A stretch of 64,000 nucleotides of DNA from a virus, in IMG/VR virus record IMGVR_UViG_3300017917_000332, positions 1 through 64,000 of that record; one strand, 5' to 3'. Positions 1 to 27,281 of this stretch are shown here, piece by piece (position 1 is the stretch's first letter; each line of letters begins with the position of its first letter). The translations under genes and the position numbers were made by a program. The notes beneath the pieces are model-generated. The model saw nothing but the letters and a program-made list of their open reading frames with translations, was not told where the DNA came from and searched no databases.

Positions 1-129
1 GAGTATCTGCTAGGTACTACACAAGAAGAATGGAATGATATTTTTAGAAACTTTAAACCTAGTGACTTATACTATAAATGGGTCACGACCTTTTACTGGC
101 CTAAGTTTTTTGAGAAGATAAAGAGTTAA
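1..129 (+). CDS. C-terminal end of an unidentified protein (partial)
   Basis: An open frame enters from the left edge and ends with TAA at 127-129, giving 42 residues rich in aromatic and charged residues (ending FFEKIKS). The start lies outside the window. It overlaps the 3' end of the convergent SGNH-like gene by 29 bases, as all convergent pairs here do. No family can be named from this fragment. Confidence 0.6.
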   Translation, partial: EYLLGTTQEEWNDIFRNFKPSDLYYKWVTTFYWPKFFEKIKS

Positions 130-835
130 CGACTAAGTCTGCAAGTTTTTTGTTTGTTTCAATACCCGGATGTTTTAAATCTCTAGCAACATCTACAACT
201 TCAATATCTTTAGTTTCAAACTGATAGCAGGGAATCCCTAGTGCTTGTATGTACGTAGTTACACTCAAACGCATTATCTTGTAATAATGTTCTAACACAT
301 CAGTTTCAATTACCTTGTAGTACTTGTCAATAATAGGCTTATCGTATAAGTGTTTGATGTAGTCAATCCATGGGCCTAACAAATACTTAGGATCATCAGA
401 TGGGTGAAAAAATCTATAAGGTTCAGGCCATTGAACAACTATATATGCTGGTCGTTTCTTAATGTGTTGGGCCCAAGAAAATAAGTTATGTGTTACAACA
501 TCAGGTCCTGATGCTTCAACAGATAAGTTGTAATAATCCATACCTAGGCTTTTTGAAACTAAGTAGGGATATGTATCTTCTAGCGCAAGACCTGAACCAA
601 ATGTAATACTGCAACCTGCAAATAATACAAAGTCCTTGTCTAGTGTTTCGACGTCTACTGATCTATGCCCGTAGACATTTCTCTTGTAGGTTATATCTTT
701 ATTCCTGTAAATCCAATCTTGAGGTTGAGATTTTAAATTTAATTGATAGTTGTCGTAAGAGTCACTGCCTTCTAAAGTAAAATTAGAATGAGGAGCAGTT
801 TCAGAACCAATTAAGTTGTTGTGTAATTTAATCAT
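101..835 (-). CDS. SGNH/GDSL-like hydrolase
   Basis: The 244-residue protein carries SGNH-like blocks. A FAGCSITFGSG stretch near residue 72 resembles block I, with the presumed nucleophile Ser in GCS rather than GDS. A YNLSVEASGPD stretch follows, and near the C-terminus DLKHPG resembles the catalytic Asp-x-x-His block. SGNH enzymes are esterases or acyl-hydrolases acting on acylated sugars or lipids; the substrate here is unknown. It is the last gene of a leftward operon behind three tandem radical SAM genes, overlapping the previous one by 8 bases. The family call rests on motifs only. A second SGNH-like protein lies at 9313-10131. Confidence 0.6.
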   Translation of the reverse strand: MIKLHNNLIGSETAPHSNFTLEGSDSYDNYQLNLKSQPQDWIYRNKDITYKRNVYGHRSVDVETLDKDFVLFAGCSITFGSGLALEDTYPYLVSKSLGMDYYNLSVEASGPDVVTHNLFSWAQHIKKRPAYIVVQWPEPYRFFHPSDDPKYLLGPWIDYIKHLYDKPIIDKYYKVIETDVLEHYYKIMRLSVTTYIQALGIPCYQFETKDIEVVDVARDLKHPGIETNKKLADLVVNSLSSQKT

Positions 836-2057
836 ATCTTTTTATAAAAGGAAATAAAGACTGCCAATTAGTCGATCTTGATGTGTCGTATAAATCCAAT
901 ACTCTTGTTCTTTCTTTAACAACTTCATAAAAGTCTGCAGGTTCGGTTGATAAAATTTTCATCAATGCATTACACTGGTTAATAACTGTTTCGTCCATTG
1001 TTCGATAATGCTTGTTGTTATTTAAAAAATTAGTTACTGCTTCAACACATTTTATTTTTTGATCAGGTTCTAAATACTGTACACTAAAATAAGGAGGCCC
1101 TTGAACTATCTGCATATTCATTTCATACCAACTGTCAATTTGATTTGCTTTATCTTCAAATACCTCAAATATCTTTTCAATATCAAAAATATTAAAAATA
1201 GAAGCAGTAAAGGAAATACCTATTCGTATAGTTCTCATGCTGATAAGATCGTTTAAATTTTGCGTAAACTGAGAATACCTTCCTGGGTATCTAATAAATC
1301 TAAATTTCTCGTCATCTATATGATCCCAACTGACTACAATGCTGTGTTTTGGAAACAAAGAAATCTTATCAAAGATACTTTGATCGTATGTAATCATATT
1401 AGTCATGATGTTTAGATTAACATCAAAATTTTCATGCTCAATACATTTATCTATGACCTCTAATGCCATTGGATTAATTAAAGGTTCACCCCCTTGGAGG
1501 ATGATTGAGTTAGTATTTTCTAAAGCTAATGACAGGTTATCAGCTACGTTGTTTACACTTTCTAATGTTAATTTTCCAGCACTCCATTCTTCAATTTTAA
1601 TTAACCAAGAAGGAATAGCTACATTATTATCCCTCCATTGAGTAACTTCTTTGGCATGCTGGCTGCTGGCTAATTGATTACAGGTTATACATTTAAGGTT
1701 ACAGAGGTTTCCAGTTTTAATATCTAGGTCAAAAGGAAGGTCAGTTGTCGGGTCAAAATTATCAATGCTTTTTGATATCAATTGATTACTACGTTGTCTT
1801 CTGCTAACAAAACCGTTAGCTTCAGTATCCCAACAACGTTGACAGTTCTCGTTATACTTTCCTTCTATAAGATCTTTGCGAAGACTATTCATCGGATCCG
1901 AACGCCAAACATCTTCAACTTTGTCAGACATTACATTATAAAAAGTTCCGTCTTCTTTTTTTATACCTGTACAAAGACTGCTACAGCAAGGAAGATAATT
2001 TCCGTTCCTCTCTGTTGCAATATGTACGAATGGTAGTATGCAGAATGTATTACTCAT
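828..2057 (-). CDS. Twitch-domain radical SAM protein (paralogue 1)
   Basis: A 409-residue radical SAM protein. The 4Fe-4S site is CNLKCITC (Cys119, 123, 126, the canonical CX3CX2C) and the SAM-binding motif GGEP is at 189-192. The N-terminus has the FCILPF block, a Cys pair near residue 24 and a CQRCW block near 72-76, typical of twitch/SPASM-like auxiliary Cys regions; here they sit ahead of the barrel. The C-terminus ends SLFPFIKRYD, shared with its neighbours. Radical SAM enzymes generate a 5'-deoxyadenosyl radical; the substrate is unknown. It overlaps the upstream paralogue by 8 bases and belongs to a three-gene tandem array. Confidence 0.85.
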   Translation of the reverse strand: MSNTFCILPFVHIATERNGNYLPCCSSLCTGIKKEDGTFYNVMSDKVEDVWRSDPMNSLRKDLIEGKYNENCQRCWDTEANGFVSRRQRSNQLISKSIDNFDPTTDLPFDLDIKTGNLCNLKCITCNQLASSQHAKEVTQWRDNNVAIPSWLIKIEEWSAGKLTLESVNNVADNLSLALENTNSIILQGGEPLINPMALEVIDKCIEHENFDVNLNIMTNMITYDQSIFDKISLFPKHSIVVSWDHIDDEKFRFIRYPGRYSQFTQNLNDLISMRTIRIGISFTASIFNIFDIEKIFEVFEDKANQIDSWYEMNMQIVQGPPYFSVQYLEPDQKIKCVEAVTNFLNNNKHYRTMDETVINQCNALMKILSTEPADFYEVVKERTRVLDLYDTSRSTNWQSLFPFIKRYD

Positions 2058-3270
2058 CTTTTAAGTACGGAAACAGTGAGTAGGTATTAGTATTTCTAAT
2101 CTTGTCGTATCCTTCTATTAAACGCTGTCGTTCTGATACAACAAAATCATAATCTTCCGGGTCGCTTAATATTTCTTCAATCTTTGTCATCATAGCCATT
2201 AGATCGTAATCTTTAAAAATAAAATGGTCTTTATTTTTTTCAAGGTAGTCCTTGTGATCTTTTAAAACTTTTTCTTTTTGCTTTTTAGTAAGGTATGTTG
2301 TACTAAAATAGTCAGGCTGGAAAACATTTCGATAAATTACTCTGCCAGTAATTTTTCCCTGTCTAGTTAATTTTTCAAAATGATCTAATATATTAGGTAT
2401 ATCAAAAATATTAAAAATTGAAACGGTCATTGATATGTCTGTTTTGATATTTGGTGCTTCAGTTGTTAGTCTATCAAAGTTGTTTAAAAACTTTTCGTAG
2501 TTTGCAGGATATCTGATATAACTAAATTTTTCAGCAACAATGTGATCCCAACTAATTCCCAGTGTAATATTATTAAAGAACTTTAGTTTCTTAAGTAACT
2601 TATCTGACAAGCTAGTTAAGTTTGTAGTAATCTGCATATTAATATCAAACTGCTGATGTTCTATACAATAGTCTAGTATGCTGTCAAACAGAGGGTGTAT
2701 TAAAGGTTCGCCACCTTCGATTTCTAAGTAAGACGAGTTTTTTAATATAGAAGATATTTGGTCTGTTAGTTTTGTTTTTTCAAAGTCAATTTGATGGCCT
2801 TTGAAAGAATCAATAATTTTAAACCATTTTGGTTTTTCAATACCTTCTTTTTCAAATACTTCTAATTCTTTTTCTATCTGGTTACTATGATAATGGTTAC
2901 AAGTAATACACTTTAGATTGCAGGTATTATCAACCTTAATGCTTAATTGATGCGGCAACTCGTCGACATGACCGCTCTCTTGTATTCTATTCTCATACTG
3001 AGACAACCAAGCTCTGTTAGAACGTTGCCTTCTGCTTTCAACACCCCTTTCTTCGTGGTACCAGCAAGTTTTACAGTTCTTGTGTTTCTCACCGTTTATA
3101 AGAGCACGGCGAACTTCTTTATGAAAGTCCGAGTTCCACGATTCTTCAATTGAGTGTTTCTTAATATTGCAAGGAGAATACGAAACACTTGCAGGACAAA
3201 CCATGTAGTCTCCCGATCTTTCAATTGTAGAATTTATAAAAGGCAATATGCAGATAGTATCTTTATTCAT
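2050..3270 (-). CDS. Twitch-domain radical SAM protein (paralogue 2)
   Basis: A 406-residue paralogue of its neighbours. It has the ICILPF N-terminal block, CKTCW near 66-70, the radical SAM triad CNLKCITC (Cys117, 121, 124), GGEP at 186-189 and the SLFPYL end. The N-terminal Cys pair seen as CC in paralogues 1 and 3 is a single Cys here (YMVCPAS), so the auxiliary metal site, if there is one, may differ. The gene starts by a 4-base overlap with the previous gene and ends overlapping the next. Substrate unknown; probably cotranscribed from the late promoter at 4574-4581. Confidence 0.85.
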   Translation of the reverse strand: MNKDTICILPFINSTIERSGDYMVCPASVSYSPCNIKKHSIEESWNSDFHKEVRRALINGEKHKNCKTCWYHEERGVESRRQRSNRAWLSQYENRIQESGHVDELPHQLSIKVDNTCNLKCITCNHYHSNQIEKELEVFEKEGIEKPKWFKIIDSFKGHQIDFEKTKLTDQISSILKNSSYLEIEGGEPLIHPLFDSILDYCIEHQQFDINMQITTNLTSLSDKLLKKLKFFNNITLGISWDHIVAEKFSYIRYPANYEKFLNNFDRLTTEAPNIKTDISMTVSIFNIFDIPNILDHFEKLTRQGKITGRVIYRNVFQPDYFSTTYLTKKQKEKVLKDHKDYLEKNKDHFIFKDYDLMAMMTKIEEILSDPEDYDFVVSERQRLIEGYDKIRNTNTYSLFPYLKDE

Positions 3271-4568
3271 TCGTATCTCCTTAGGTACGGGAATAAAGAC
3301 ATATGATCAGTGTTACGCAGTGAATCGTACAAGTCTAACACTCTTGTTCTCTCTTTAACAACTTGGTCAAAGTCTAGCTGTTTAGGGCCCATGAAGCCTC
3401 TAATAGTTCTAATACTTTCTACCATCTCTGGATTATCTTTAAAAACCTTGTAGTGCTGATGTTTATCCAAATACTGATTAAATTTTGTTGCGGCAAGATC
3501 TTTTTGATCCTCGTCTAGGTATTTTAGATTAAAATAGTTAGGGTAATATATCATGCCCATATTAATAGTAAACTTACCAGCAACACGATTGCTAACTTCT
3601 TCCCAGTTTTCAAATATTTCCTCAACATCAAAAATATTAAAAATTCCCCAGGTAGTACTGAGTTTCTTTTCAATATGTTCAAACTCAAATATTTTGTCAA
3701 AGTTTCTTCTAAAATGGTTGTAGTCTGCAGGGTGACGAATAAAGTAAAACTTATCAGGATCTACATGATCGTAGCTGACATTTAACATTGGGTGTTTAAA
3801 CTTGTCCAAATGTCTAAGCGTCTTGTCATTGATTGTAGAAAGGTTGGTGATAATCTGAAGCATCATATGTTCAGCATAACCTGCTTCTACACATCTTTCT
3901 AACAGTCGTATAGTTGCAGGGTTAACTAACGGCTCGCCACCAACTATACTAAGATGTTTTGCTTGTTTAAGACTTGGCTCTAAGTTACTGATCAATTGTT
4001 CAACATCTAGATTTTTGGGATTAAAGTTATCCATGTTTATGTCAAACTTTTTAACTCTAGCGTCCCACATTTTAATTAACCCGGGAGTGTCTAAGTTTTG
4101 AGATTTCATCTTTAGAGACTCTTCGTGGTGCAGACTGCTACTTCCAGGGTAGCACATGATACATTTTAAATTGCACAGAGTACCGATCTTTAAATCAATA
4201 TTTGTTGGCGGCTCCGATAACACGTAGTCATTATTCAGTGCTTCTTGTATGTAAGGTTCGTAGTCTGGATATAAGTCCTTACATTCCACTAAGCTCTTTT
4301 GACGTCTACTAAATGCTCCCCGATCTTCAAACTCCCAGCAGTATTGACAAGTTGGATTCTTAACACCGTTTAGTAAATCTTTTCTAAGTGTTTTATAAAA
4401 GTCACTGTTCCACACTTGGTCAACAGAATGAGTCCTCATGTTATAAGGCTGTCCATTTTCATCATTAATGACTACTTCTTCAGAATAACAACAAACCCTA
4501 TAGTTGCCGTCGTTGGTTGATCCTATATGAGTAAATGGCAAGATACAAAATGTGGGATACTTTTTCAT
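3267..4568 (-). CDS. Twitch-domain radical SAM protein (paralogue 3)
   Basis: A 433-residue protein with FCILPF, a CC pair at 26-27, CQYCW near 74-78, the radical SAM triad CNLKCIMC (Cys132, 136, 139), GGEP at 210-213 and a C-terminal SLFPYLRRYE. The reading frame extends upstream to a GTG at 4595. I chose the ATG at 4568 because it precedes the conserved TFCILPF block and sits five bases after a late-promoter box. It is the first gene of the leftward operon 4568-101. Function beyond radical SAM chemistry is unknown. Confidence 0.85.
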   Translation of the reverse strand: MKKYPTFCILPFTHIGSTNDGNYRVCCYSEEVVINDENGQPYNMRTHSVDQVWNSDFYKTLRKDLLNGVKNPTCQYCWEFEDRGAFSRRQKSLVECKDLYPDYEPYIQEALNNDYVLSEPPTNIDLKIGTLCNLKCIMCYPGSSSLHHEESLKMKSQNLDTPGLIKMWDARVKKFDINMDNFNPKNLDVEQLISNLEPSLKQAKHLSIVGGEPLVNPATIRLLERCVEAGYAEHMMLQIITNLSTINDKTLRHLDKFKHPMLNVSYDHVDPDKFYFIRHPADYNHFRRNFDKIFEFEHIEKKLSTTWGIFNIFDVEEIFENWEEVSNRVAGKFTINMGMIYYPNYFNLKYLDEDQKDLAATKFNQYLDKHQHYKVFKDNPEMVESIRTIRGFMGPKQLDFDQVVKERTRVLDLYDSLRNTDHMSLFPYLRRYE

Positions 4569-4594: not shown

Positions 4595-4602
4595 CATAAA
4601 TA
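4595..4602 (+). promoter_or_regulatory. T4-type late promoter box CATAAATA
   Basis: CATAAATA is followed by GAAAC and the ATG at 4608. No Shine-Dalgarno sequence fits in the five-base gap, so a leaderless transcript is expected. It is divergent from the box at 4574-4581. Confidence 0.65.
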
Positions 4603-4607: not shown

Positions 4608-5786
4608 ATGAACACAGTAAACCTAGTAGTCAACCAATTTAATTTTGACGAAGAAATATTACTAAAAGCAGTTAAAGACAAGAGCGGAACCTATTTGGGT
4701 AAGACTGTTAGTCTATGCCACCACTGTCACCAGCATGTACCAGCTTACATATATCACGATCAAAAACATTTATGGATGGCCAAGGCTTGTAAGTTACACG
4801 GTGTTAGCCATCATATGATTGAAAGGGACTACGAGTTCTACAGTAATTTAAAGTACACCAAAAACACTTTTGGATTCACTCATAAAAATGTAATGACTGA
4901 AGTTACTGATAAATGTAATGCTAACTGTCCCCATTGTTATCATATTCCTGACAACTCAAAGCCGGATGTTAGTTACCAAGAACTAATTGCTAAAATAAAC
5001 AAGTGGTATAAAAAAGGCAGTGACACAAATATTATATTTGCAGGTGCCGAACCTTTGCTACGAAAAGACATTATTGAGTTAGTTGAGACTATAAACATCG
5101 AATTTCCGCAATCTAATATTGCGTCATTGACTAACGGCATTAGACTTGCTGACCGTCAGTTAGTTAAAGATTTAAAGTCTGCTGGACTAAAAAGTGTTCT
5201 TATAGGGCTGAATCATCCTAGTTATCTAAACACTCCTGTAATTAGACAGAAACAATTAGACTCTATTATTAACTGCCAAGAAGAAGGTATGAACATGTAT
5301 TACGTAGGATACACTATGAGCAGTACCTTAGAGCTGTTTGATATCCTAGATGAGATTATGAGTAACCCTTGGTATCCTCCTCAATTTAGAATACGCTACG
5401 GTAGTGACATTGGAAGATATCCCGAACAAGAAAGATTATACGTTAGCGATATCTATAAATTAATCAAACACTGGTGTGATAAGAATAACAAACACTTTGA
5501 GGATATGGAAGGTGATAATAACATTTATCACACTATGGTAAAAGTTGAAGGAAAGCCAATTCGTGTTATCCAATGGTGTGACGAGACTGATATACACATG
5601 GAAGAACTAAGAACCGGACCTTACTGCGATTTTGTTAGCGATGGTTTAACAAACTTCTTGCACCAAGTTATTAGACGCGATGTAGAAAAAAATAAAGGAA
5701 TAGTACTTCCTGATTTGCCCCCTACTAGATACCTAATGGAAAATCAGTTTGATTATTCTGAGTTAGATTTTAAAACTTTAAGATAA
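4608..5786 (+). CDS. Radical SAM protein with Tes/MJ0619-like N-terminal Cys knuckle
   Basis: A 392-residue protein. The N-terminus reads SLCHHCHQHVPAY with Cys37 and Cys40, followed by a KACKLHG block (Cys61, His64). This matches the layout seen ahead of the barrel in the archaeal Tes/MJ0619-like radical SAM family (SLCPxC...CPEHG). The radical SAM triad is CNANCPHC (Cys103, 107, 110) followed by Tyr. The usual GGEP is AGAEP at 145-149. Known relatives methylate pterins or couple lipid chains; which of these, if either, applies here is not shown. The gene is a single-gene unit, divergent from the twitch triplet, and its end overlaps the convergent gene by 34 bases. Confidence 0.75.
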   Translation: MNTVNLVVNQFNFDEEILLKAVKDKSGTYLGKTVSLCHHCHQHVPAYIYHDQKHLWMAKACKLHGVSHHMIERDYEFYSNLKYTKNTFGFTHKNVMTEVTDKCNANCPHCYHIPDNSKPDVSYQELIAKINKWYKKGSDTNIIFAGAEPLLRKDIIELVETINIEFPQSNIASLTNGIRLADRQLVKDLKSAGLKSVLIGLNHPSYLNTPVIRQKQLDSIINCQEEGMNMYYVGYTMSSTLELFDILDEIMSNPWYPPQFRIRYGSDIGRYPEQERLYVSDIYKLIKHWCDKNNKHFEDMEGDNNIYHTMVKVEGKPIRVIQWCDETDIHMEELRTGPYCDFVSDGLTNFLHQVIRRDVEKNKGIVLPDLPPTRYLMENQFDYSELDFKTLR

Positions 5787-6367
5787 ATTTCTTTAAGAGT
5801 GTTGTTAGGCCATTGGATGTAATCTAAACACGCTCTTTCGTACAACAGAGCAACATCCAACTTACCATCTACTGCTAACTTCTCAACAACTTCTAAACGA
5901 TCTGCATTTAGTATTGGTTTGTAGAAATCAACATCAACGAGGCTTTCCTTATAGTTGCAGGATGTATAAAACGAATAAGCTCTTAGTGTTCCTTTGCTGT
6001 CTGTATAAAAACATTTAGGGTAAAAGTTAGGTTTATATATTTTATACTTGTGCAAATCTTTAACTATATTTTCAAGTTGCATTTGCCAGTTGTCTGGTAA
6101 GAAGTCTTCGCAACTATTTCCGTACCAGTCAAAGTATATCTTCTTGCGACCAATATCAACATTTACATGTTCGGGCATCCAAGAAACGTTGTAGCCTTTT
6201 AAGTCAAACAACATTCTACACTCACGCATGAAACTAGACTCAACTAGTTCTTTAGGGTATTTTGGATCAACAGGATTAAAATCAAGACATGCCTGTGTTT
6301 GGTCTTCATTAACTAATAGCGTAAAAAGACCTTGGTGTAGTCCGTTTGATTTAAAATTATTTTCCAC
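5753..6367 (-). CDS. Kinase-fold-like phage protein, paralogue A
   Basis: A 204-residue protein with a GTG start at 6367, chosen because a late box lies 4 bases upstream and no ATG lies nearby. It shares a layout with the protein at 14201-14893: an IYFDWYG strand, then LPDNWQMQLENIVKDLHKY, then a short basic stretch and TDSKGTLRAYSFYTS. The pattern resembles the catalytic-loop and DFG regions of aminoglycoside-phosphotransferase-like kinases but lacks the catalytic HxD and DFG residues. It may be a pseudokinase; this is a weak inference and its function is unknown. Confidence 0.5.
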   Translation of the reverse strand: MENNFKSNGLHQGLFTLLVNEDQTQACLDFNPVDPKYPKELVESSFMRECRMLFDLKGYNVSWMPEHVNVDIGRKKIYFDWYGNSCEDFLPDNWQMQLENIVKDLHKYKIYKPNFYPKCFYTDSKGTLRAYSFYTSCNYKESLVDVDFYKPILNADRLEVVEKLAVDGKLDVALLYERACLDYIQWPNNTLKEIYLKVLKSNSE

Positions 6368-6382: not shown

Positions 6383-6390
6383 CATAAATA
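6383..6390 (+). promoter_or_regulatory. T4-type late promoter box CATAAATA
   Basis: CATAAATA is followed by TCTG and the ATG at 6395. It lies back-to-back with the minus-strand box at 6372-6379, separated by three bases. Confidence 0.65.
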
Positions 6391-6394: not shown

Positions 6395-6922
6395 ATGAAA
6401 TTAATTAGAAACTGTAGTGATATAATTGATTGGGACTACGAAATATCGTTGTTGACTGACGGCAACAGGTTAGTTTACAATGATCAATCCTTTAACAAAG
6501 ATCTACCCCAATTCGCTAAAATGGATAAAGTTTGGCAAGACGCTGGGTATCAATATAACACTGACAGTATTGAGTGGATAAATTATTTTCCAAGGAAAGA
6601 ACTTATTGATAAGTTTTCCGAGCTAGTCGAAGCTAAACCGTGGATGGTTTGGTTCAGTAGAATAAAGCCTGGCAAGATGGCACCATGGCACGAGGATGTA
6701 CATTCAAAAATCAACGAAGTATTGTCTTTAGGAACACCTGTTAGATTCACCTGTTATGTACAGAACCCTCATGTAGGTCATGTTAGTATTGTAGAAAAAC
6801 ATTGTGTGTACATGCCTAATAAAGGGGACATCTATCAATGGCCTTCGCACGATGCGTGGCATTGCGGAATGAACGGCGGACTAGTTGACAAATATATGTT
6901 TAACTTTTGGGGTTACAGATGA
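6395..6922 (+). CDS. 2-oxoglutarate/Fe(II) oxygenase-like protein
   Basis: A 175-residue protein with the Asp/Asn beta-hydroxylase-like layout. A metal-binding HxD (His99-Glu-Asp101 in APWHEDVH) lies on one strand. A distal His156 (DAWHCGMN) is followed by a C-terminal YMFNFWGYR strand whose Arg could bind 2-oxoglutarate. It is directly upstream of the halogenase, with an ATGA stop/start overlap, so the two are almost certainly cotranslated and may act in one pathway. The fold assignment is from motifs; the substrate is unknown. Confidence 0.65.
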   Translation: MKLIRNCSDIIDWDYEISLLTDGNRLVYNDQSFNKDLPQFAKMDKVWQDAGYQYNTDSIEWINYFPRKELIDKFSELVEAKPWMVWFSRIKPGKMAPWHEDVHSKINEVLSLGTPVRFTCYVQNPHVGHVSIVEKHCVYMPNKGDIYQWPSHDAWHCGMNGGLVDKYMFNFWGYR

Positions 6923-10155: not shown

Positions 10156-10162
10156 TATTTAA
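10156..10162 (-). promoter_or_regulatory. Possible late promoter box TTAAATA
   Basis: On the minus strand TTAAATA lies 24 bases before the ATG at 10131, the longer spacing class. It shares a base with the plus-strand box, so the two form the near-palindrome TATTTAATAAATA. Confidence 0.4.
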
Positions 10163-10168
10163 TAAATA
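10161..10168 (+). promoter_or_regulatory. T4-type late promoter box AATAAATA
   Basis: AATAAATA is followed by CCTGCA and the ATG at 10175, a 6-base gap consistent with a leaderless late mRNA. Confidence 0.6.
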
Positions 10169-16520: not shown

Positions 16521-16535
16521 GGGTGTGCTACCATG

Positions 16536-19110: not shown

Positions 19111-20123
19111 ACGTTGTAAAAGTTCTTCAAAAATGGCCTAACGACACGTTACGCATCGAAATGATGATCGGTAACACTTGTAATTACAAGTGTTGGTACT
19201 GCTTTCCCGGTAGTAACGAAGGCACACATCGCTGGCCAGACTTTGAAAGATTTAAAACCAATACACATCATTTGCTGAAGTATTACCAAGAACAGCTAGG
19301 AAAAAATAAGTTTGAAATACATTTCATCGGCGGCGAACCAACGCTGTGGCCTGAACTCGGCGAGTATGTAAAGTATCTCAAAGAGAATTTTAATGTGGTA
19401 ACTTCTATGAGTACTAACGGATCAAGAACGATTCGTTGGTGGAAAGAATACGGAAAGTACTTTGATAAAGTAGTTATAAGCTGTCATTACGAAGCAATTG
19501 ATGTACAGCATGTATGCGATGTTGGAGATATTTTATACGATCAAAAAGTTATTGTCGGCGGATTAGTATTAATGGATCCTAACAACTGGGACAAGTGTTG
19601 GGAAGTCATGAAAGGTGTCTGTAAAAGTAAAAGGAGTTGGGGTGTTGACCTTCAAGAACTTTACGTACAAGGCCAAAAGATTGAATATACCCCTGAACAA
19701 ATAAAACTCTTAAGAAAGCATCGCTTTAGACAAATAAACATTTTTCACTTTTTTAAAAATAACAAACACACTCTACAAAGAGTGAAAGTTGAATTTGAAA
19801 ACGGTAAAACTCAACGAGTAAAAAGCAACGAGATTATTCTAAACAAGTGGAATAAGTTTAAAGGTTGGGACTGTAATCTTGGCATTGACAGTATTTTTAT
19901 CAGTAAAGAAGGATACGTTACAGGTGCCTGCGGTGAAAAACTTTACAACCTTGACTTTAAATATAATATTATGGATCAAGACTTTCCACAAAAGTTCAAT
20001 CCATCAATTACCACAACTACCTGTTATCAAGAAAATTGCTGGTGTCAACCAGAGTCTAACTTAACTAAGAGTCAAGAAAATCCTGTTTACACTAAAAAGA
20101 TTATTCCGATACTACCTGTTTAG
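19107..20123 (+). CDS. Radical SAM protein (CNYKCWYC)
   Basis: A 338-residue protein with the triad CNYKCWYC (Cys25, 29, 32) and GGEP at 75-78. It has a C-terminal Cys region with DCNLGIDSIFISKEGYVTGAC and CYQENCWCQ, resembling an auxiliary cluster domain. It is similar to 20101-20994 and 26289-27281 in layout (xxxRWPxxDxIxxEW-N start, WxCNxGxxS near the C-terminus). Its 3' end overlaps the convergent gene by 23 bases. The substrate is unknown. Confidence 0.85.
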   Translation: MNVVKVLQKWPNDTLRIEMMIGNTCNYKCWYCFPGSNEGTHRWPDFERFKTNTHHLLKYYQEQLGKNKFEIHFIGGEPTLWPELGEYVKYLKENFNVVTSMSTNGSRTIRWWKEYGKYFDKVVISCHYEAIDVQHVCDVGDILYDQKVIVGGLVLMDPNNWDKCWEVMKGVCKSKRSWGVDLQELYVQGQKIEYTPEQIKLLRKHRFRQINIFHFFKNNKHTLQRVKVEFENGKTQRVKSNEIILNKWNKFKGWDCNLGIDSIFISKEGYVTGACGEKLYNLDFKYNIMDQDFPQKFNPSITTTTCYQENCWCQPESNLTKSQENPVYTKKIIPILPV

Positions 20124-20994
20124 TAATAGGAATATCTGCGGCACACGTACACCAGTCTCTAGTACATATAACTGGATCGCTAGGAGCAACAAAGCTATCT
20201 TCATAAATGTTGCCTAGGCTACCACCAACTCTACAAGTTGCTCGATGTACTTCCCCATCCCAATTGATCATGAGGCTTTCGAGACCGGCGTTACATGTCC
20301 AGTCTTTATACTTGTTTAGATGTAACTTAATCACATCGTTAGCATGTATTACTTGTTCGTTATCAATTACACAGTTACCTTGAACTGTAGCATCTTGTTC
20401 TTTAATCCATGCTAGGTCATCTGGGTGATAACGCATGTCGTCAAACAGATTATGATCGCCTTCTGTCCATCGAATTCGTCTTACGGTACACGGAATACTG
20501 TCATGTATCAATAGTCCCCTAACAAACTTAACTTGATGCATGTAGTCATGATGCGACATAATCTGACCAATGAGTTTTTTATTAGATTTTTCTGCTAACT
20601 GTTGTAATGTTTTAACTACTCTTCGCCACTCGAATTCAAAATGTATGCTAAACACATACTGTTCTACTGGTAATGATTGATAAAACTCAAACGGTAAAGT
20701 GCCGTTAGTTGTTACACTGATCCAACTAACACCTTTATACTTTGCATACTTTACTAGTTCGTAAAACTTAGGGTGTACACAGGGTTCGCCGCCTGTGAAA
20801 CTTAGGCGAACGGGTTTATTTAAAGACACTAGTTTATCTATAGCAGACTTTAACACTTCTATATCAGTGTGCGGACTAGAATTGTCATGTATCGAACTTG
20901 GACAATAGCTACAATCGTAATTGCAACGTTTGCCTAAGTTCCATTCAACCTTAATGCTATCTTGATGAGGCCAACGACTAGTTACCTTAAACAT
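20101..20994 (-). CDS. Radical SAM protein (CNYDCSYC)
   Basis: A 297-residue protein with the triad CNYDCSYC (Cys24, 28, 31) and FTGGEPCVHP near 86. The C-terminus has WTCNAGLESLMINWDGEVHRATC and CTRDWCTC, a compact auxiliary Cys set. It is a paralogue of the gene it converges with (19107-20123). It follows a twitch radical SAM gene, overlapping it by 8 bases. Probably part of a QueC-like / twitch rSAM / rSAM leftward operon. Confidence 0.85.
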   Translation of the reverse strand: MFKVTSRWPHQDSIKVEWNLGKRCNYDCSYCPSSIHDNSSPHTDIEVLKSAIDKLVSLNKPVRLSFTGGEPCVHPKFYELVKYAKYKGVSWISVTTNGTLPFEFYQSLPVEQYVFSIHFEFEWRRVVKTLQQLAEKSNKKLIGQIMSHHDYMHQVKFVRGLLIHDSIPCTVRRIRWTEGDHNLFDDMRYHPDDLAWIKEQDATVQGNCVIDNEQVIHANDVIKLHLNKYKDWTCNAGLESLMINWDGEVHRATCRVGGSLGNIYEDSFVAPSDPVICTRDWCTCAADIPITKQVVSE

Positions 20995-22327
20995 AAGGTT
21001 TAAACTCCGGAACTGCTTGAAGAAGATCTTGATTTCTAGTTTTATCTAATCTTCGATTAAATTCTAAAAAGTCATTCCATAGATGACTTTGATCTTTAGC
21101 ACGTAGATAGTTAATGTTATCTTTTATCTGTTGCTGTGTGATTTTTTCTAGTATAGGATACTTCTCGACGTTGCTAAAAGTAAACACACGACTTGCTATT
21201 GCTTCGAGCCTAGATATTGCTAGTTCTTTTAGATCTTGTGGCAAGACTTGTGCTGACAATACATTAGGATAACTAACTCTATGGCTATAAAAGACAATGT
21301 TTAAGTGATTGATGAAATAATCAATACATTCCGCTGCCTGTAATATATTACCCGCTTGGGCTGTGAATGCCCCGACAACTCTACTAACATTTGGTATCGT
21401 TTGTATTTCTCTAATGTTAGCCTCCACTTGAGAAAAGTTACCGTTACCACGAATGTAATTATAAACATCGTGAATGCCGTCAATGCTAACATTAACGGCA
21501 ACTGACTTAAAATAAGGCCAATAGTCATGAATTGTTCTTCCTTTGCTTATACCTAGTGTTGTTCCATTGGTTGCATACTTGATTTCAATACTCTTTCCAT
21601 AAGGTTTAAGCATATCTAAAATCTTATAGTGATGAGGATCCATTAACGGCTCACCGCCCGCAAATTCTACACGCCTAAAATGTGGAAGTAACTTTTCAAA
21701 ACTAGCCCACCATTTATCTGTATCATCAAATGGTCCAATATATTGTCCAGGCTTCTGAACTAATTTTCCAATAGTTGGCACTAGATAGTTGTTTTCTTTT
21801 TCGTAAAAGGGTTTTACTTCGTCCCAGTCTTGCCAGCTAGTGCTGTCTAAAGGATTGCACATTCTGCATTTTAGATTGCAGAGGTTATTAATTTTAATTT
21901 CCATTGTAGGAAATTCAAAAGGCAATGTATAGTTGTCAGTTAACTGATCAAGTGCTGTTGGATATAAGTTTATTCTAGCTTCGGGTATGACGCCGTTGAT
22001 GTGTCGTTGTCTTAGACTTTCAACGCCCTGATCTTCTAGATCAAAACAAGGCTTACATACATCAGGACGCCCTCCGTTTAAGACTTGTCGTCTAACTTCT
22101 TGCATCTTAGAATTGTTCCATACCTCTTCTAAGCTATTTTCTTGTATCCAGCCAATAGGTTGACTGCGGCAACATATTTTAATTGCACCGTCTTCTCGTG
22201 TTGCCAGTCCTGTAAAAGGATGCATACAGAATGTCTTACTTTGATTGTTCAATTGCCCACTCTCGTTCTTTACACCAAAAACATTTCCCGCACGTTGGCA
22301 CAAACTGTCCCGGTGTGTAGGTCTCAT
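20987..22327 (-). CDS. Twitch-domain radical SAM protein
   Basis: A radical SAM protein of up to 446 residues with KTFCMHPFTGLATREDG, a CC pair at 52-53, CKPC near 91, the triad CNLKCRMC (Cys150, 154, 157), a GGEP motif and a C-terminal LLQAVPEFKPYV. The only ATG before the conserved block is at 22327, which overlaps the QueC-like gene by 92 bases. A TTG at 22252, just before LNNQSKTFC, would give a more typical length and a shorter overlap, so the start is uncertain. Confidence 0.8.
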   Translation of the reverse strand: MRPTHRDSLCQRAGNVFGVKNESGQLNNQSKTFCMHPFTGLATREDGAIKICCRSQPIGWIQENSLEEVWNNSKMQEVRRQVLNGGRPDVCKPCFDLEDQGVESLRQRHINGVIPEARINLYPTALDQLTDNYTLPFEFPTMEIKINNLCNLKCRMCNPLDSTSWQDWDEVKPFYEKENNYLVPTIGKLVQKPGQYIGPFDDTDKWWASFEKLLPHFRRVEFAGGEPLMDPHHYKILDMLKPYGKSIEIKYATNGTTLGISKGRTIHDYWPYFKSVAVNVSIDGIHDVYNYIRGNGNFSQVEANIREIQTIPNVSRVVGAFTAQAGNILQAAECIDYFINHLNIVFYSHRVSYPNVLSAQVLPQDLKELAISRLEAIASRVFTFSNVEKYPILEKITQQQIKDNINYLRAKDQSHLWNDFLEFNRRLDKTRNQDLLQAVPEFKPYV

Positions 22328-22952
22328 AAGTTATGTTTGGAAATTCGCCTTCACAACTTCTGGTTAAGTTTAACAACTTTTCAAGACCTAATTCTTTATA
22401 TTTTAACACAATCCAACTCTTATCTACAAACCTAAAAGGATGACAAGCTAACTTGCCCAAATGAATCATTTTTTCTAAATGCCTGTTATCATTAGTTGGA
22501 TCGATATTTCTTGCTTCTGGACCGCCTTCGACATTTTTAGGATTTCGAGTAACTCCGTTAAAGTATGCATCGACGTCGTAGGTAATGCATACGTATTCTG
22601 CAAAAGATCTTAATTCTAAAGTATCACCGCTAACAGTTTTACCATACTCATCTGTTATCATTGTACCATAGGCGTGTTCCATTTCTGGAGGTATAAAATT
22701 AGTATGTAACTCAAAGTTTATATGAACAAACTCTTGTCTTAACCAATTATAAACATTTTTAAAATCTTGTTGTTGCCAAGGTTTAGTTTTCCAGCACCGT
22801 ATGTTATTAATAATGTGTACGGTAAACGGCTCAACACTATTATCTTTAACTGTTTGGCATACCATATAAGCCAACAAGGCACTGTCAGCACCGCCGCTAA
22901 CGGCAATAGCAACGCTTCTCCAATCTTTGCTAAACGGTATTTCAACTTTCAT
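22236..22952 (-). CDS. QueC-like PP-loop ATP pyrophosphatase
   Basis: A 238-residue protein with the PP-loop SGGADS (19-24) that binds ATP pyrophosphate. At the C-terminus CGKCFWC (Cys221, 224, 227) with an earlier SCEGE block resembles the zinc site of QueC, the 7-cyano-7-deazaguanine synthase. QueC relatives occur in deazaguanine pathways and in other amide or nitrile chemistry, so this may not make preQ0. The GTG at 22970 is also open, but the ATG at 22952 follows a late box by 5 bases. It leads the leftward operon to 20101. Confidence 0.7.
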   Translation of the reverse strand: MKVEIPFSKDWRSVAIAVSGGADSALLAYMVCQTVKDNSVEPFTVHIINNIRCWKTKPWQQQDFKNVYNWLRQEFVHINFELHTNFIPPEMEHAYGTMITDEYGKTVSGDTLELRSFAEYVCITYDVDAYFNGVTRNPKNVEGGPEARNIDPTNDNRHLEKMIHLGKLACHPFRFVDKSWIVLKYKELGLEKLLNLTRSCEGEFPNITYETYTPGQFVPTCGKCFWCKEREWAIEQSK

Positions 22953-22957: not shown

Positions 22958-22965
22958 TAATTATG
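22958..22965 (-). promoter_or_regulatory. Possible late promoter box CATAATTA
   Basis: On the minus strand CATAATTA is followed by TACTT and the ATG at 22952. It overlaps the start codon of the divergent gene at 22963, so the two boxes are interlocked. Confidence 0.4.
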
Positions 22966-23640
22966 CTCACAAAACTTCCACAGAAATTTTCTATAGACCC
23001 AATAGTTGATCAAGTTAACAACTTATCTTTTGAAAAAAGATTGGATCTTAATCGTCCAACTGGTAAGTTTTTTAACGACCCTTGGGAAACATTGTCAGAA
23101 TTTCAAAACACTCCAATTGGCGAAGTTTTAAATACAGTTGGATCAATTGGGCAAGCAAGACTTTTAAAGTTAGAATCTGCTGAAAGTTATACTGCTCATG
23201 CTGACCCCGACGATAGAATACATCTTGCTATTGTTACTAATCCGTATAGTTTTTTAGTTGACATAACCGATAATCATCTACATCATTTGCCAGCTGACGG
23301 TCAGCTTTGGTATATGGATACTGGGAAGATTCATGTTGCGGCAAACTGGGGAGCCACTACACGAATACACTTAAACATTAGGGTATTATTACCTAAACTA
23401 GATAGATCTAAAGAAGTTCTACAGATTAAAGTGCTTAGTGGCGGTTTTGATTGGAAACAAGCATCTTACTTGCCAATTATGAAACTAGTTAATAAAGATG
23501 TAAAGTCTGGAAACATTACTGGATTTGAGTCAAGCAACGAAAAAGAACTTTTCTTAAACATAAACGACAAGTCTGAGATTATTAAGATGCTAGAGAATAT
23601 AAAGCAACACGGTATAGATATAATTACCAATACTTTATAG
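22963..23640 (+). CDS. Aspartyl/asparaginyl beta-hydroxylase-like oxygenase
   Basis: A 225-residue protein. YTAHADPDDRIH gives the metal HxD (His79, Asp81), TGKIHVAANWG the distal His124, and TTRIHLNIRV the 2-oxoglutarate Arg134. The arrangement fits the AspH domain well. The frame opens at 22927, but MLTKLPQKF at 22963 is chosen for its late box and because it avoids overlapping the divergent gene. It is a single-gene unit, and its 3' end overlaps the convergent SPASM gene by 17 bases. Confidence 0.75.
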   Translation: MLTKLPQKFSIDPIVDQVNNLSFEKRLDLNRPTGKFFNDPWETLSEFQNTPIGEVLNTVGSIGQARLLKLESAESYTAHADPDDRIHLAIVTNPYSFLVDITDNHLHHLPADGQLWYMDTGKIHVAANWGATTRIHLNIRVLLPKLDRSKEVLQIKVLSGGFDWKQASYLPIMKLVNKDVKSGNITGFESSNEKELFLNINDKSEIIKMLENIKQHGIDIITNTL

Positions 23641-24730
23641 GATCTTCTTTCTTAACAGTTCCCTCAACTAATTGTTTAAGATTAGTTGAACAACTCTTAA
23701 CACATACTAATTTCTTATCAGTTGTAAAGTGCTTGGGCAAGGTTTCATTCCAATTTGAGTCTAACAATACTTGTATAATGTTAGAACCATGCAATGATGG
23801 AATACCAATATCTTGTTTGATATCTTCTCCGGATATGCGCAATCTTTCTCTGATAATAAAGTCTGCGCCAGTAGTTGGTAAATGCTCTGCTGTCATTAAA
23901 CTACCAACGAAACAACATGGCCATACTTCTCCAAGCGCATTTACAAATAAATCTTTTCCTGTTGCACACTTGGCATCGATAATAGAATCATCAATCATCT
24001 TTTTGTAGACTTCTTTATCAACTAGTCTAACAAAATTTGGTTGCATTACTTTTTCGCCAAACTCAGGAAGTGTTGGACTTTGAATGTAGTATTCAATGTT
24101 TCCTTGCTTATCTTTAACGGGATAATTTTCTAATCCGTAAAATCTTTGTGTTGGTTTTAAAGCAACTTCGTCAAAGCCTAGACCTAATAGAAAGTCTTTT
24201 AGCTCGTGGACTCTAGCTTCATTATGCTTAAAAATAATAGTATCGGACTTTGCTCGGCCACCGGCTGCAATATATGTCTTTGCATTTTCAATAACCTTAG
24301 ACCAACTAGTGTTTCTTCTGTAGATTTCGTGTTCACCTTCAAACCCGTCAATGGCAAAAATAACATGACCTCTATTGCCAAGGACCTTAGCAAGACTTGT
24401 CCACCAGTCTTTGTTTCTTAGACTGCCGTTAGTGTGTATGTCAAGTCTACAGGTTTCTTTTGTGTTCTCTACAAGGTACTGAAAAATTTCTAAACAATCT
24501 CTAGCAAGTAGGGGATCTCCGTTATTGCCGCAGGCATAAAAGTGATCCAACTGCATTAGAAACTCTCTAGGAAACCACTGTTTAAATTCTTCTAACGAAA
24601 TTTCTACGTTTCTAATATGACTTCTTTCTGCACCACCAAATACGTTTCTTGGACACATAGGACACGCGGCTTGGCACTTATCAGTCAGCTCGATATGTAC
24701 TGATTTAATGTTATAAGGATATACTTGCAT
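23624..24730 (-). CDS. Radical SAM/SPASM-type protein (CQAACPMC)
   Basis: A 368-residue protein with the triad CQAACPMC (Cys19, 23, 26) followed by PRNVFGG. A C-terminal SPASM-like region has CATGKDLFVNALGEVWPCC and a late CVKSCS. I chose the ATG at 24730, which aligns with the start of its paralogue at 25318-26310; an ATG four codons earlier (24742) is also possible. It overlaps the methyltransferase gene upstream. It is last of a four-gene leftward operon (27281-23624) with three radical SAM proteins and one methyltransferase. Confidence 0.85.
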   Translation of the reverse strand: MQVYPYNIKSVHIELTDKCQAACPMCPRNVFGGAERSHIRNVEISLEEFKQWFPREFLMQLDHFYACGNNGDPLLARDCLEIFQYLVENTKETCRLDIHTNGSLRNKDWWTSLAKVLGNRGHVIFAIDGFEGEHEIYRRNTSWSKVIENAKTYIAAGGRAKSDTIIFKHNEARVHELKDFLLGLGFDEVALKPTQRFYGLENYPVKDKQGNIEYYIQSPTLPEFGEKVMQPNFVRLVDKEVYKKMIDDSIIDAKCATGKDLFVNALGEVWPCCFVGSLMTAEHLPTTGADFIIRERLRISGEDIKQDIGIPSLHGSNIIQVLLDSNWNETLPKHFTTDKKLVCVKSCSTNLKQLVEGTVKKEDPIKYW

Positions 24731-25331
24731 CGCGTTTTCCAATAATCATAAATCTTTTATATAAGGGTAACTCTAGTTCGCCGGCCCAGATAACATTTAA
24801 ACGACTTTGATCTTTAAACTGTTCTAAAGATTCAGCTATCCTTACGTGTTCTGGTATTTGATAGTTGTTAGACTGCAACACAATCAAACTATCTAAAGGT
24901 AATTTAGATAGCCACTTATCGTATTGCTCTTGTGTAATGTGTTCAAAGCTAGTGTTGATAATAATGTCAGCGCGACTATTGTATTCGCACATATCAGCAG
25001 TTACAGCACGAAACCGTCCTGTTTGTAGTTCTAGCTGATTCATTGTGTTGGCAATCTCTTCGCAGGTTGGGTCTATGTCAATACTGGTTATTCTTTCAAT
25101 AAACATAGTGCTTTGAAACATCAAACTTGCTAGAGTGCCTACCCAACCTCCGTGAATGTCTATAGTTGGCCAATCTTTATGATGATATCGTTGCTTCTGT
25201 AGCTCATCAATAAGCCATTCTTTACTACGTATCTGTCCCTTCCAGAATGCGTCCATAGTACGCATAGGATCTTTGCTGTTTCTAATAGCTAACATCCAGT
25301 AATGGATGTGATCGAGGTCAAGCTCTATCAA
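24711..25331 (-). CDS. Class I SAM-dependent methyltransferase-like protein
   Basis: A 206-residue protein. IDIHGGWVGTLASLMF matches motif I of Rossmann methyltransferases, ITSIDIDPTCEEIA carries the acidic residue that binds SAM ribose, RAVTADMCEY the adenine-contact Asp, and ADIIINTSFEHI the motif IV region (NTSFEH in place of N/D-PPY). It is embedded between two SPASM-type radical SAM genes and overlaps both, so it probably acts on the same substrate. Target unknown. Confidence 0.7.
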   Translation of the reverse strand: MIELDLDHIHYWMLAIRNSKDPMRTMDAFWKGQIRSKEWLIDELQKQRYHHKDWPTIDIHGGWVGTLASLMFQSTMFIERITSIDIDPTCEEIANTMNQLELQTGRFRAVTADMCEYNSRADIIINTSFEHITQEQYDKWLSKLPLDSLIVLQSNNYQIPEHVRIAESLEQFKDQSRLNVIWAGELELPLYKRFMIIGKRDASISL

Positions 25332-26310
25332 ACTGTGCTCCTAGCTTATCAAATTTACCGCACTGTTTAGCACACTCTAACAAAGGCTCTTTGTCCCAAG
25401 TGTCTGATATCTTTCCAAAATATCCACTATCAAACATTTCTTTTAGAGACATTTTGTTAAGATTAGGAATAGTTCTAATACGATCCATATAGTCTACTCG
25501 AGAATCTTGCCTAGGCAAAATCCATTGGAAATCTAACCAACAGCAGGGACTTACGTTTCCGTTTGCCGCAACATAAAGTTGATTAGTTTGTTTTGCTTTA
25601 CAACTAATTGATGAAGGCTTAATCTCAATAATAGATTCTTGAACCTGCTGTATCATTCCAGAACTTCTTTCTGTAGGATAAATGATATGAGTAGTATAAC
25701 CTTCATCGTCGAGAACATGTAATTTGTTCCCTGTAAACCGTGAAGTATGTTTTGTAGTAAAGTGTTTGAATCCGTATTGCTCGCTAAGAGCTTTGCAGTC
25801 CTCTACTTGATGTTCGTTATGTTTAAAAACTAGCATGTGCCATTCAGCATTGCCACCTGCTTCGATAAATGCCTTAGCATTTTCAATAATCTTGTGCCAG
25901 TCCGTTGATATACGATATAAATGATGTGTGTCAGCTAGTCCATCTATGCCAAAAGTAGTTCTTACATCAAGTTTAGCAAGCTCTTTCCACCATTCGGTAG
26001 TCCTAGCACTTCCGTTAGTATGCATACTCAAAGCAATATTAGGGTTATGCTCTTTGAGATACTGATAAATTTCTAAAGTATCTTGGGCAATAATAGGATC
26101 GCCTAGGTTACCACACATGATTAAACTTCCTAGTTGCTTAACAAAGTCAACTGGGAACCATTCTTTAAACTGTTCAAGTGTAATCTCCTCAAGGTCAATT
26201 AACGGATTCATTATACCGCCATTGACTCTTCTAGGACACATAGGACACCTAGCTTGGCATTTAGATGTTACTTCAAGGTGTATAGATTTTATATCTTCGT
26301 AATTGTACAT
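25318..26310 (-). CDS. Radical SAM/SPASM-type protein (CQARCPMC)
   Basis: A 330-residue protein with the triad CQARCPMC (Cys18, 22, 25), then PRRVNGG. MCGNLGDP near residue 66 stands where GGEP is expected, and a C-terminal SPASM-like set has CKAKQTNQLYVAANGNVSPCC and CAKQCGK. It is a close paralogue of 23624-24730 and more distantly of 15398-16507. It overlaps its neighbours by 14 and 22 bases. Confidence 0.85.
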   Translation of the reverse strand: MYNYEDIKSIHLEVTSKCQARCPMCPRRVNGGIMNPLIDLEEITLEQFKEWFPVDFVKQLGSLIMCGNLGDPIIAQDTLEIYQYLKEHNPNIALSMHTNGSARTTEWWKELAKLDVRTTFGIDGLADTHHLYRISTDWHKIIENAKAFIEAGGNAEWHMLVFKHNEHQVEDCKALSEQYGFKHFTTKHTSRFTGNKLHVLDDEGYTTHIIYPTERSSGMIQQVQESIIEIKPSSISCKAKQTNQLYVAANGNVSPCCWLDFQWILPRQDSRVDYMDRIRTIPNLNKMSLKEMFDSGYFGKISDTWDKEPLLECAKQCGKFDKLGAQFDRA

Positions 26311-27281
26311 GTCTTTGGTATTTTCGAATCTGCTGAACTAACGCAACTAGGTGTAATACACTGTTGCGGTTGTTTAAACAATTCAAATCCTGTTGTTAGT
26401 GTGCCTAGTGGTTGATCGTGGCAACTGTAGCTACGTTTAACCTCGGCTCCCCTGATTATAACACTTTGATATCCAGCATTACAAGTCCAGTTGGTAAATT
26501 TATTAAATCCAAATGCATTAAATCTTTCAGCTTGATCAAACAAGTATTCTGTGTTGTCTTTGTCATACAGAGCAATTTGATAAACTTCTTCACCTTGAGA
26601 CTGTTGAGGGAAACCATTTTTCATTAAATGAATCATGTCTTCAGTATATCCATCAACTACTTGACTAGCAGTTGGATCGCTTTGTGGCTTTAGAGTAACG
26701 TTAATTCCTCTACTGTGCAGTCTAGACATCCTGTCGTAAAGCTCGTAGAACTTTTCTGGAACCATAACTTGATTAACAGTAACGTAGACGTTTTCGTCAA
26801 TAAGTTTTAAACACTTGTCTCCAAATTCAGATTCTTTAGCAAATTCTGCATGATAGCTGGCTGTAATACTTCTGCGCTGTAAAGCAGATGTTATACTTGC
26901 CCAGGTCTTCCACCAATTGATGCTGGGACTAAGATTAGTAGTCATGTGTATGCTTTGATATGGGCTGACTAAATCTTGTTCTAAATGTCTAGTTAGGTCT
27001 AGCAGTCTTTTATAAGCAGTAGGTTCCCCGCCACTAAAACTCCAATGAAATTCAGTAAATCCATTTTGGCGAGCTTGCCGTTTGATTTCATCAATAGTCT
27101 GAACATATAATTCAAATGATTGGTAATCGAGCTCATCGGACCTAGCATAGGGCCAGCAGTAAGAACATTTATAATTACAGAAGCGACCAAGTATCCAACT
27201 AACAGAAAACAATGGCCTATTGAGCATTGTCCTTTGTCCAAAACGGACAATATCCTTAAATGGTATAGTATCGAAGTTCAT
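26289..27281 (-). CDS. Radical SAM protein (CNYKCSYC)
   Basis: A 330-residue protein with the triad CNYKCSYC (Cys35, 39, 42), a SGGEPTAY motif, and a C-terminal WTCNAGYQSVIIRGAEVKRSYSC plus a late Cys pair. It is a paralogue of 19107-20123 and 20101-20994. The frame allows a GTG at 27287, but the ATG at 27281 has the late box 6 bases upstream. It is first in the leftward operon. Its start codon abuts the -35 box of the rightward promoter for the tRNA-like gene. Confidence 0.85.
   Translation of the reverse strand: MNFDTIPFKDIVRFGQRTMLNRPLFSVSWILGRFCNYKCSYCWPYARSDELDYQSFELYVQTIDEIKRQARQNGFTEFHWSFSGGEPTAYKRLLDLTRHLEQDLVSPYQSIHMTTNLSPSINWWKTWASITSALQRRSITASYHAEFAKESEFGDKCLKLIDENVYVTVNQVMVPEKFYELYDRMSRLHSRGINVTLKPQSDPTASQVVDGYTEDMIHLMKNGFPQQSQGEEVYQIALYDKDNTEYLFDQAERFNAFGFNKFTNWTCNAGYQSVIIRGAEVKRSYSCHDQPLGTLTTGFELFKQPQQCITPSCVSSADSKIPKTCTITKI

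Follow-up and report, generated by a model that had tools for sequence, protein, structure and literature searches.

Bases 1 to 64,000 of the IMG/VR virus record IMGVR_UViG_3300017917_000332, which spans 74,452 bp, carry at their left end an island of thirty genes (101-27,287) encoding radical S-adenosylmethionine (SAM) proteins, oxygenases and group-transfer enzymes. This 64,000-base stretch is called the window, and the island genes are numbered g01 to g30 from left to right. Judged by their sequences, the island enzymes are intact and under purifying selection, and decay is excluded. Conserved sub-modules are present in hundreds of IMG/VR contigs, and the set is not unique to the window. 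These phages very probably produce a decorated molecule late in infection, and we propose, with a probability of roughly 0.45, that the island encodes a dedicated late pathway of a T4-type phage that makes a heavily modified sugar or sugar-linked surface unit. The virion would be the site of decoration, the host envelope being less likely. Everything beyond an intact, conserved enzyme set is what we infer from the genes.

Enzyme complement of the island

Island genes mostly overlap or lie a few bases apart and form short units on alternating strands, as the original prediction had described. The island reaches the left end of the contig, with its first gene 101 bases from it, and may therefore be truncated on that side. 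In the gene list, F-numbers denote protein families from a clustering of 193 sources, counted in 89 largely non-redundant loci of at least 15 kb (37 found via g21 and 52 found via g09); G- and L-numbers denote related records and loci.

g01, 101..835, minus strand: SGNH/GDSL-hydrolase-like, motif label, weak DUF6473 match; family F61, 7 viral contigs
g02, 828..2057, minus strand: twitch radical SAM, NF033640 269 bits; PF04055, PF13186 SPASM
g03, 2050..3270, minus strand: twitch radical SAM, NF033640 281.6 bits
g04, 3267..4568, minus strand: twitch radical SAM, NF033640 287 bits
g05, 4608..5786, plus strand: radical SAM (TrsS/Tes-like), PF04055 62 bits; CxxxCxxC in 87/87 homologues
g06, 5753..6367, minus strand: small protein, kinase-like through resemblance to g16; F31, 17 viral contigs
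g07, 6395..6922, plus strand: 2-oxoglutarate (2OG)-type oxygenase, HxD..H kept in 121/121
g08, 6919..8511, plus strand: PF04820 flavoprotein ("halogenase"), 298.7 bits, E 1e-88; PDB 6frl, VirX1 6qgm
g09, 8508..9311, minus strand: 2OG-type oxygenase, most conserved module B member, 72-87% identity; HxD..H 111/111
g10, 9313..10131, minus strand: SGNH-like, label from open reading frame (ORF) and motif
g11, 10175..10624, plus strand: function unassigned (phrog_10325); F51, 9 contigs
g12, 10621..11409, minus strand: 2OG-type oxygenase, HxD..H motif; 53% match in G001
g13, 11409..11969, minus strand: AspH-type hydroxylase, PF05118 61 bits, above cut-off
g14, 11987..13123, minus strand: class-III aminotransferase, PF00202 109 bits, E 3e-31
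g15, 13120..14157, minus strand: pentein amidinotransferase, PDB matches HsvA/StrB/AGAT/SxtG; triad D163/H204/C330
g16, 14201..14893, plus strand: protein-kinase-like fold lacking HRD/DFG residues, Foldseek TTK; MHPSSYF/INYFF 95/95
g17, 14881..15435, plus strand: GNAT-like (putative, motif-only label); F11, 89 viral contigs
g18, 15398..16534, minus strand: radical SAM with SPASM-like C-terminus, PF04055 above cut-off
g19, 16549..17166, plus strand: AspH-type hydroxylase, PF05118 26 bits, above cut-off; 84% in G006
g20, 17163..17762, plus strand: short SDR-like, weak PF00106; F16, 49 contigs
g21, 17719..19110, plus strand: twitch radical SAM, module A seed, NF033640 404 bits; at least 572 viral matches
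g22, 19107..20123, plus strand: radical SAM, PF04055 50.5 bits; 27/37 loci
g23, 20101..20994, minus strand: radical SAM, 8 invariant Cys; 37/37 loci
g24, 20987..22327, minus strand: twitch radical SAM, exact start uncertain, NF033640 319 bits; 36/37 loci
g25, 22236..22952, minus strand: PP-loop ATPase, QueC-like, CxxCxxC, PF01171 below cut-off; SGGxDS S and D and three Cys 67/67
g26, 22963..23640, plus strand: AspH-like oxygenase, PF05118 just below cut-off; HxD..H 94/94; 31/37 loci
g27, 23624..24730, minus strand: radical SAM, PF04055 38 bits
g28, 24711..25331, minus strand: methyltransferase-like, weak PF13649; 31/37 loci; Bdellovibrionota homologues
g29, 25318..26310, minus strand: radical SAM with SPASM-like C-terminus, PF04055 45 bits; Bdellovibrionota homologues 35-41%
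g30, 26289..27281, minus strand: radical SAM, PF04055 44 bits; Bdellovibrionota homologues 47-60%
13th radical SAM, 41375..42763, plus strand: outside the island, PF04055 match at 41,801-42,343; F52 family, inside the G006 island

A PF04055 search of the 74,452-bp record found 13 radical SAM genes, all stop-free and above cut-off (E 1e-8 to 3e-18). These are the twelve already predicted, within 1-27,200 and with CxxxCxxC intact, and one added at 41 kb. Full-length NF033640 twitch proteins are encoded by g02, g03, g04, g21 and g24 (269-404 bits against a curated cut-off of 170 bits), the other seven island radical SAM proteins falling below that cut-off. Cluster cysteines are invariant in g05, g21, g23, g24, g29 and g30, save for one alignment gap in g29, and are kept in 73 of 76 homologues of g22, where the remainder are gaps. 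The seven radical SAM families checked on homologues have 3-5 extra invariant cysteines beyond CxxxCxxC, which resemble those of SPASM/twitch enzymes.

The six predicted 2OG-type oxygenases (g07, g09, g12, g13, g19 and g26) all carry HxD..H, read by eye in the window sequence for g12, g13 and g19 and taken from homologue alignments for g07, g09 and g26. A Pfam search gave no match for g07, g09 and g12, whose 2OG-type assignment rests on the HxD..H motif. The amidinotransferase and the aminotransferase are confirmed by the matches listed for g15 and g14, and the g15 triad is conserved among its 13 aligned members (D163 12/13, H204 13/13, C330 13/13).

Other labels held in part. Like the cyanophage halogenase VirX1 and the tryptophan halogenases, g08 belongs to PF04820 and retains the catalytic Lys (K72) and Glu (E356) of flavin-dependent halogenases. 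It differs from them in that g08 and the relatives examined lack WxWxIP and STG, reading WxFx(I/V)x and A(N/T)x instead, and halogenation is therefore not claimed. By sequence, g08 is a PF04820 flavoprotein for which the predicted name "halogenase" is not warranted without an assay. The predicted short-chain dehydrogenase/reductase (SDR, g20), methyltransferase (g28) and PP-loop/QueC-like protein (g25) all score below Pfam cut-offs, and the GNAT (g17) and SGNH (g01/g10) labels come from motifs; most of the families behind these weak labels are nonetheless well conserved. Two small proteins that had been left unnamed are g06 and g16. The model of g16 matched the TTK kinase in a Foldseek search (probability 1.0, TM-score about 0.4), and it lacks the HRD and DFG kinase residues, with invariant MHPSS and INYFF at those positions in 95 homologues.

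Loss of catalytic residues, which could have spoken against a working pathway, was not found: apart from the alignment gaps in g22 and g29, the residues are invariant in alignments of 67-121 members per family, and the g15 triad is kept in 12-13 of 13. Against the closest relative, G006, nonsynonymous divergence (pN) is 0.10-0.28 and synonymous divergence (pS) 0.65-0.84.

Conserved modules in related phages

Queried singly, the g15 and g08 proteins reached only 3 and 2 viral loci, and alignment queries were needed; scans of IMG/VR with alignments matched 361 contigs when seeded with g09 and at least 572 when seeded with g21. Viral scans kept the best 80 matches, so the counts describe near relatives, and the 10-kb flanks around seeds undercount linkage. 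Two modules emerge from the 89 loci. Module A comprises g21-g22-g23-g24-g25-g26-g28-g29-g30: among the 37 loci found via g21, g23 occurs in 37, g24 in 36, the g18/g27/g29 family in 35, g30 in 32, g28 and g26 in 31 each, g22 in 27 and g25 in 24. Module B comprises g09-g16-g17-g07: the 52 loci found via g09 hold g16 in 50, g17 in 44 and g07 in 42, and also g05 in 37. The modules often lie at most 10 kb apart, with g24 near g09 in 33/52 loci. Other genes are optional, with g08 in 9, g15 in 8, g11 in 5 and g02-g04 in 4 of the same 52 loci; the "halogenase" and the amidinotransferase, which had made the set appear unique, are thus optional members.

An alternative is that the island is a loose store of swappable auxiliary or anti-defence genes with no single product, which shared late promoters and recombination hold in one place. 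Islands differ in the order and strand of their genes and accessory genes turn over, and a comparable cluster in phage CP220 was termed an interchangeable, probably non-essential module by Timms et al. 2010 (PMC2853527). However, a loose store would not yield core genes that co-occur in 31-37/37 loci (for most of them; 42-50/52 in module B) with the same neighbours, the runs g23-g24-g25-g26 and g17-g16-g09 recurring. In addition, viperin-like matches cover only part of the proteins and score well under the cut-off, and viperin-type nucleotide chemistry was dropped on that ground. We consider the loose store unlikely. Neighbours do not vary independently, and the intact, selected genes that co-occur in hundreds of related contigs look like the single tailoring pathway that had been predicted.

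Large sister contigs hold 9-17 radical SAM genes. In the closest relative (G006, 331,570 bases) the island measures about 40 kb and includes a carbamoyltransferase, a CTP_transf+MannoseP_isomer protein (cytidylyltransferase/mannose-6-phosphate-isomerase-like), B12-binding-type radical SAM proteins and two genes of family F20; IscU and two A-type Fe-S carriers lie at its edge. PF07068 (Gp23 major capsid protein) was found in G006, G009, G010, G011 and G012, and none in the 74-kb record, where the capsid region is missing; Gp23 in five large relatives suggests that these phages belong to the T4 group. Compared with phage isolates, a tail protein matched only Atu_ph07 (25%) and g09 matched none, so no close isolate is known.

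A version in Bdellovibrionota

A genome scan with g21 found 26 cellular loci, nearly all in Bdellovibrionota, in which g21, g30, g29 and often g28 are grouped. The families are those of the window, at a typical identity of 35-52%, and here they lie adjacent to one another with a gene of GT-A fold alongside. They differ from the window in that they hold mostly core module A genes and additional radical SAM genes, and tblastn found no module B in Bdellovibrionota. In the two loci read, an F20-family protein is close by and ordinary chromosomal genes surround the group. The predicted model of F20 (pLDDT 88) resembles the GT-A glycosyltransferases SunS, RmlT and GalNAc-T at a modest TM-score of about 0.35-0.47. 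The GT-A fold assignment is good, and from it we infer that F20 may transfer a sugar.

Viral and Bdellovibrionota clades are cleanly apart in the g21 tree, save for one short contig (L179). This 3.5-kb contig from a Thermoplasmata metagenome-assembled genome (MAG) was rejected as an archaeal copy, being nested among viral sequences and probably mis-binned. Two contigs assigned to cellular bins, L179 and L195 (Rickettsiales MAG MED657), are rich in radical SAM genes or resemble viral sequence and are possibly mis-binned phage DNA.

Late promoters

An exact search for TATAAATA gave 2 matches, below chance, whereas the relaxed motif ATAAATA tested in divergent gaps showed enrichment: ATAAATAT is present in 74 of 173 divergent gaps versus 26 of 1519 tandem gaps in islands and flanks. 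Promoters of the TATAAATA type thus lie upstream of the units, as in T4-type late gene units. Occurrences in the window are as follows.

4596..4602, plus strand: ATAAATA, 5 nt ahead of the g05 ATG
6384..6390, plus strand: ATAAATA, 4 nt ahead of the g07 ATG
10162..10168, plus strand: ATAAATA, 6 nt ahead of the g11 ATG
16513..16519, minus strand: ATAAATA, 5 nt ahead of an internal g18 ATG; probable true g18 start near 16507
16537..16543, plus strand: ATAAATA, 5 nt ahead of the g19 ATG
49320-49326: late-promoter motif, 4-6 nt ahead of the superoxide dismutase ATG (gene 49331-49888)

By sequence, these promoters support the predicted late expression of the divergent units. In viral loci totalling about 1.77 Mb, ORFs of at least 80 amino acids have their ATG 4 and 5 bases past ATAAATA in 52 and 63 cases, against 0-2 cases at offsets 0-3, 9-11 at 6-8 and 1 in total at 4-5 in the reversed-sequence control. 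Transcription from T4 late promoters begins about six bases after the motif. Given this start position and the ATAAATA-ATG spacing of 4-6, which is itself unusual, the late mRNAs are predicted by analogy to be leaderless, beginning at or beside the ATG. The same spacing is found outside the island in G006, and by this comparison it belongs to the phage lineage rather than to the pathway. No late sigma factor was found by a PF04542 search, gp55 itself not having been searched for. Literature searches of titles and abstracts returned no relevant description of leaderless late promoters.

Comparison with known systems

The original prediction held that one phage would usually have just one or two enzymes of this kind, and it knew of no parallel; neither point is supported. 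The Campylobacter phages CP220 and CPt10 encode 11-12 radical SAM proteins (PMC2853527). Like the window, they are T4-related and have a cluster of five radical SAM genes with a putative glycine amidinotransferase, and the window likewise combines at least five clustered radical SAM genes with an amidinotransferase. Unlike the window, their cluster has far fewer genes, in tandem on one strand, at 25-29% identity, and counterparts of g08, g14 and the oxygenases were not found in the region compared. In CP220, two nucleotide-sugar transferases adjoin the amidinotransferase/radical SAM cluster; neither orthologous genes of the CP220 type nor adjacent nucleotide-sugar transferases were recognised in the window island. 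By analogy, the CP220/CPt10 cluster is divergent but functionally parallel to the island module.

A 183-kb marine T4-like genome, TARA_ERS488813_N000010, has 12 radical SAM genes and an A-type Fe-S carrier (Nishimura et al. 2017, PMC5332604). The passage on these genes frames them as Fe-S metabolism and describes no island, module or pathway; ClpP is also listed among the Fe-S-related genes of such genomes. The jumbo-size Vibrio phages K566/K567 resemble the window in having a run of NF033640-like proteins, but identity is 22-24% and the region compared has no other window families. Literature searches of titles and abstracts found no described pathway with this gene set. Radical SAM-rich T4-like phages (CP220/CPt10, TARA_ERS488813_N000010) are thus already known; as far as the analysis and the literature searched show, what is new is how large the set is and which enzymes it combines, its two conserved modules in hundreds of contigs, the counterpart in Bdellovibrionota, the tie to a glycosyltransferase and the distance between promoter and ATG.

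Nature of the product

Several gene associations point to a glycan. The minimal module g21+g29+g30(+g28) lies beside F20 in Bdellovibrionota, and glycosyl-, carbamoyl- and nucleotide-sugar enzyme genes lie in or adjoin sister islands. Among 11 records surveyed for domains, several of them fragments, 8 have nucleoside-diphosphate (NDP)-sugar epimerases above cut-off, located within or alongside the island in G006, G010, G011 and G013. The CP220 amidinotransferase gene lies between radical SAM genes and the nucleotide-sugar transferases, and in cyanophage S-SCSM2R an amidinotransferase adjoins KdsA, KdsB, glycosyltransferase and 2OG oxygenase genes.

In the proposed route, twitch/SPASM radical SAM proteins would act at C-H bonds (by dehydrogenation, epimerisation, or formation of C-C or C-S bonds) of a carrier- or nucleotide-linked substrate, which the 2OG/AspH oxygenases would hydroxylate. 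The g14 aminotransferase and then the g15 amidinotransferase would add amino and then guanidino groups, and the GNAT, methyltransferase and PF04820 enzymes would cap or oxidise the product. Module A (g21-g30) may make a common core that module B (g09/g16/g17/g07) processes, while g02-g06, g08, g10-g15 and g19-g20 would be exchangeable decorations, varying like serotype genes. Phage Fe-S carriers (IscA; IscU in relatives) would supply clusters.

Some points weigh against a sugar product. Genes for a glycosyltransferase or for NDP-sugar enzymes were not found within the window's own island, and elsewhere in the window there is only a DUF6492 protein, at 48.4 kb; F20, found in about 30 viral contigs, is hence not universal. 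Peptides or lipids, rather than sugars, are the substrates of AspH-type hydroxylases and of most SPASM radical SAM proteins whose function has been established. The kinase-like g16 lacks kinase residues, and the glycan product, its acceptor and its expression are predicted from the genes.

The main rival to the glycan is a peptide or protein substrate, on which the radical SAM/AspH set would act post-translationally, either on phage structural protein(s) or on a small peptide, in the manner of a ribosomally synthesised and post-translationally modified peptide (RiPP). Both enzyme families are mostly peptide-acting, many peptide maturases are among the best partial profile matches, and g14 matches a daptide aminotransferase model. 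In many sister islands, a conserved 60-amino-acid ORF (containing FYIKKFMEIQQQN) immediately precedes g21 or a g29-family gene. However, this ORF is present in only part of the contigs and has no variable core region, and the window island, with its overlapping or abutting genes, has no precursor-like ORF. No RiPP recognition element (RRE) domain, protease or exporter was recognised, no search aimed at an RRE having been made. We consider a peptide or protein substrate rather unlikely. Separately, the 60-amino-acid ORF is seen at L103:8956-9138 and about 20 other loci, lying between a 2OG gene and one of these two radical SAM genes, and is absent from the window; it is a possible small partner or precursor.

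DNA decoration, which had been suggested alongside virion decoration, would put a modified base of the 7-deazaguanine or thymidine type into phage DNA. A QueD-like gene (PTPS) at 46080-46607 and the QueC-like g25 fit this, and radical SAM, GNAT, pyridoxal phosphate-dependent and amidinotransferase-type enzymes could serve base-modification pathways. But TGT/DpdA (PF01702) was found in 0 and thymidylate synthase in only 2 of the 11 surveyed records, and ordinary bacterial chromosomes carry the minimal module beside a glycosyltransferase-fold gene. DNA hypermodification is thus disfavoured and very unlikely. QueE identity was rejected for the radical SAM proteins, which gave only weak partial matches.

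Stated more broadly, the surface-glycan proposal would make this a new and widespread radical-SAM-core pathway common to T4-type aquatic phages and Bdellovibrionota, yielding a new class of glycan or glycopeptide-like surface decoration with serotype-like exchangeable tailoring and leaderless late mRNAs. We put this forward tentatively, as possible rather than probable.

Neighbouring genes

The gene block beside the island (27452-31361; families F39, F23, F32, F40, F46 and F62) also borders islands in several relatives, which suggests a fixed island site. Further right, a Fe/Mn superoxide dismutase (49331-49888) is followed by an A-type Fe-S carrier (IscA/ErpA-like; 50214-50537, plus strand; PF01521 77.6 bits), a candidate supplier of Fe-S clusters. 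A single ORF of 3909 amino acids (50543-62272) probably encodes a giant virion fibre or structural protein. Two consecutive ClpP-like protease genes, labelled by sequence only, lie at 36156-37410, and a Bax1-I (inhibitor-of-apoptosis type) membrane protein is encoded in the phage at 39626-40318.

Significance

Phages of this type devote tens of kilobases to oxygen-sensitive, cofactor-hungry chemistry. Strong selection maintains it across hundreds of genomes, so its product must be important to them. With a conserved core that also exists as a small chromosomal version in predatory bacteria, the question can be put to the test in organisms that grow in culture. If the product is a new natural product, the island would be a source of radical SAM chemistry; if it decorates the virion, phages would have a new means of surface variation.

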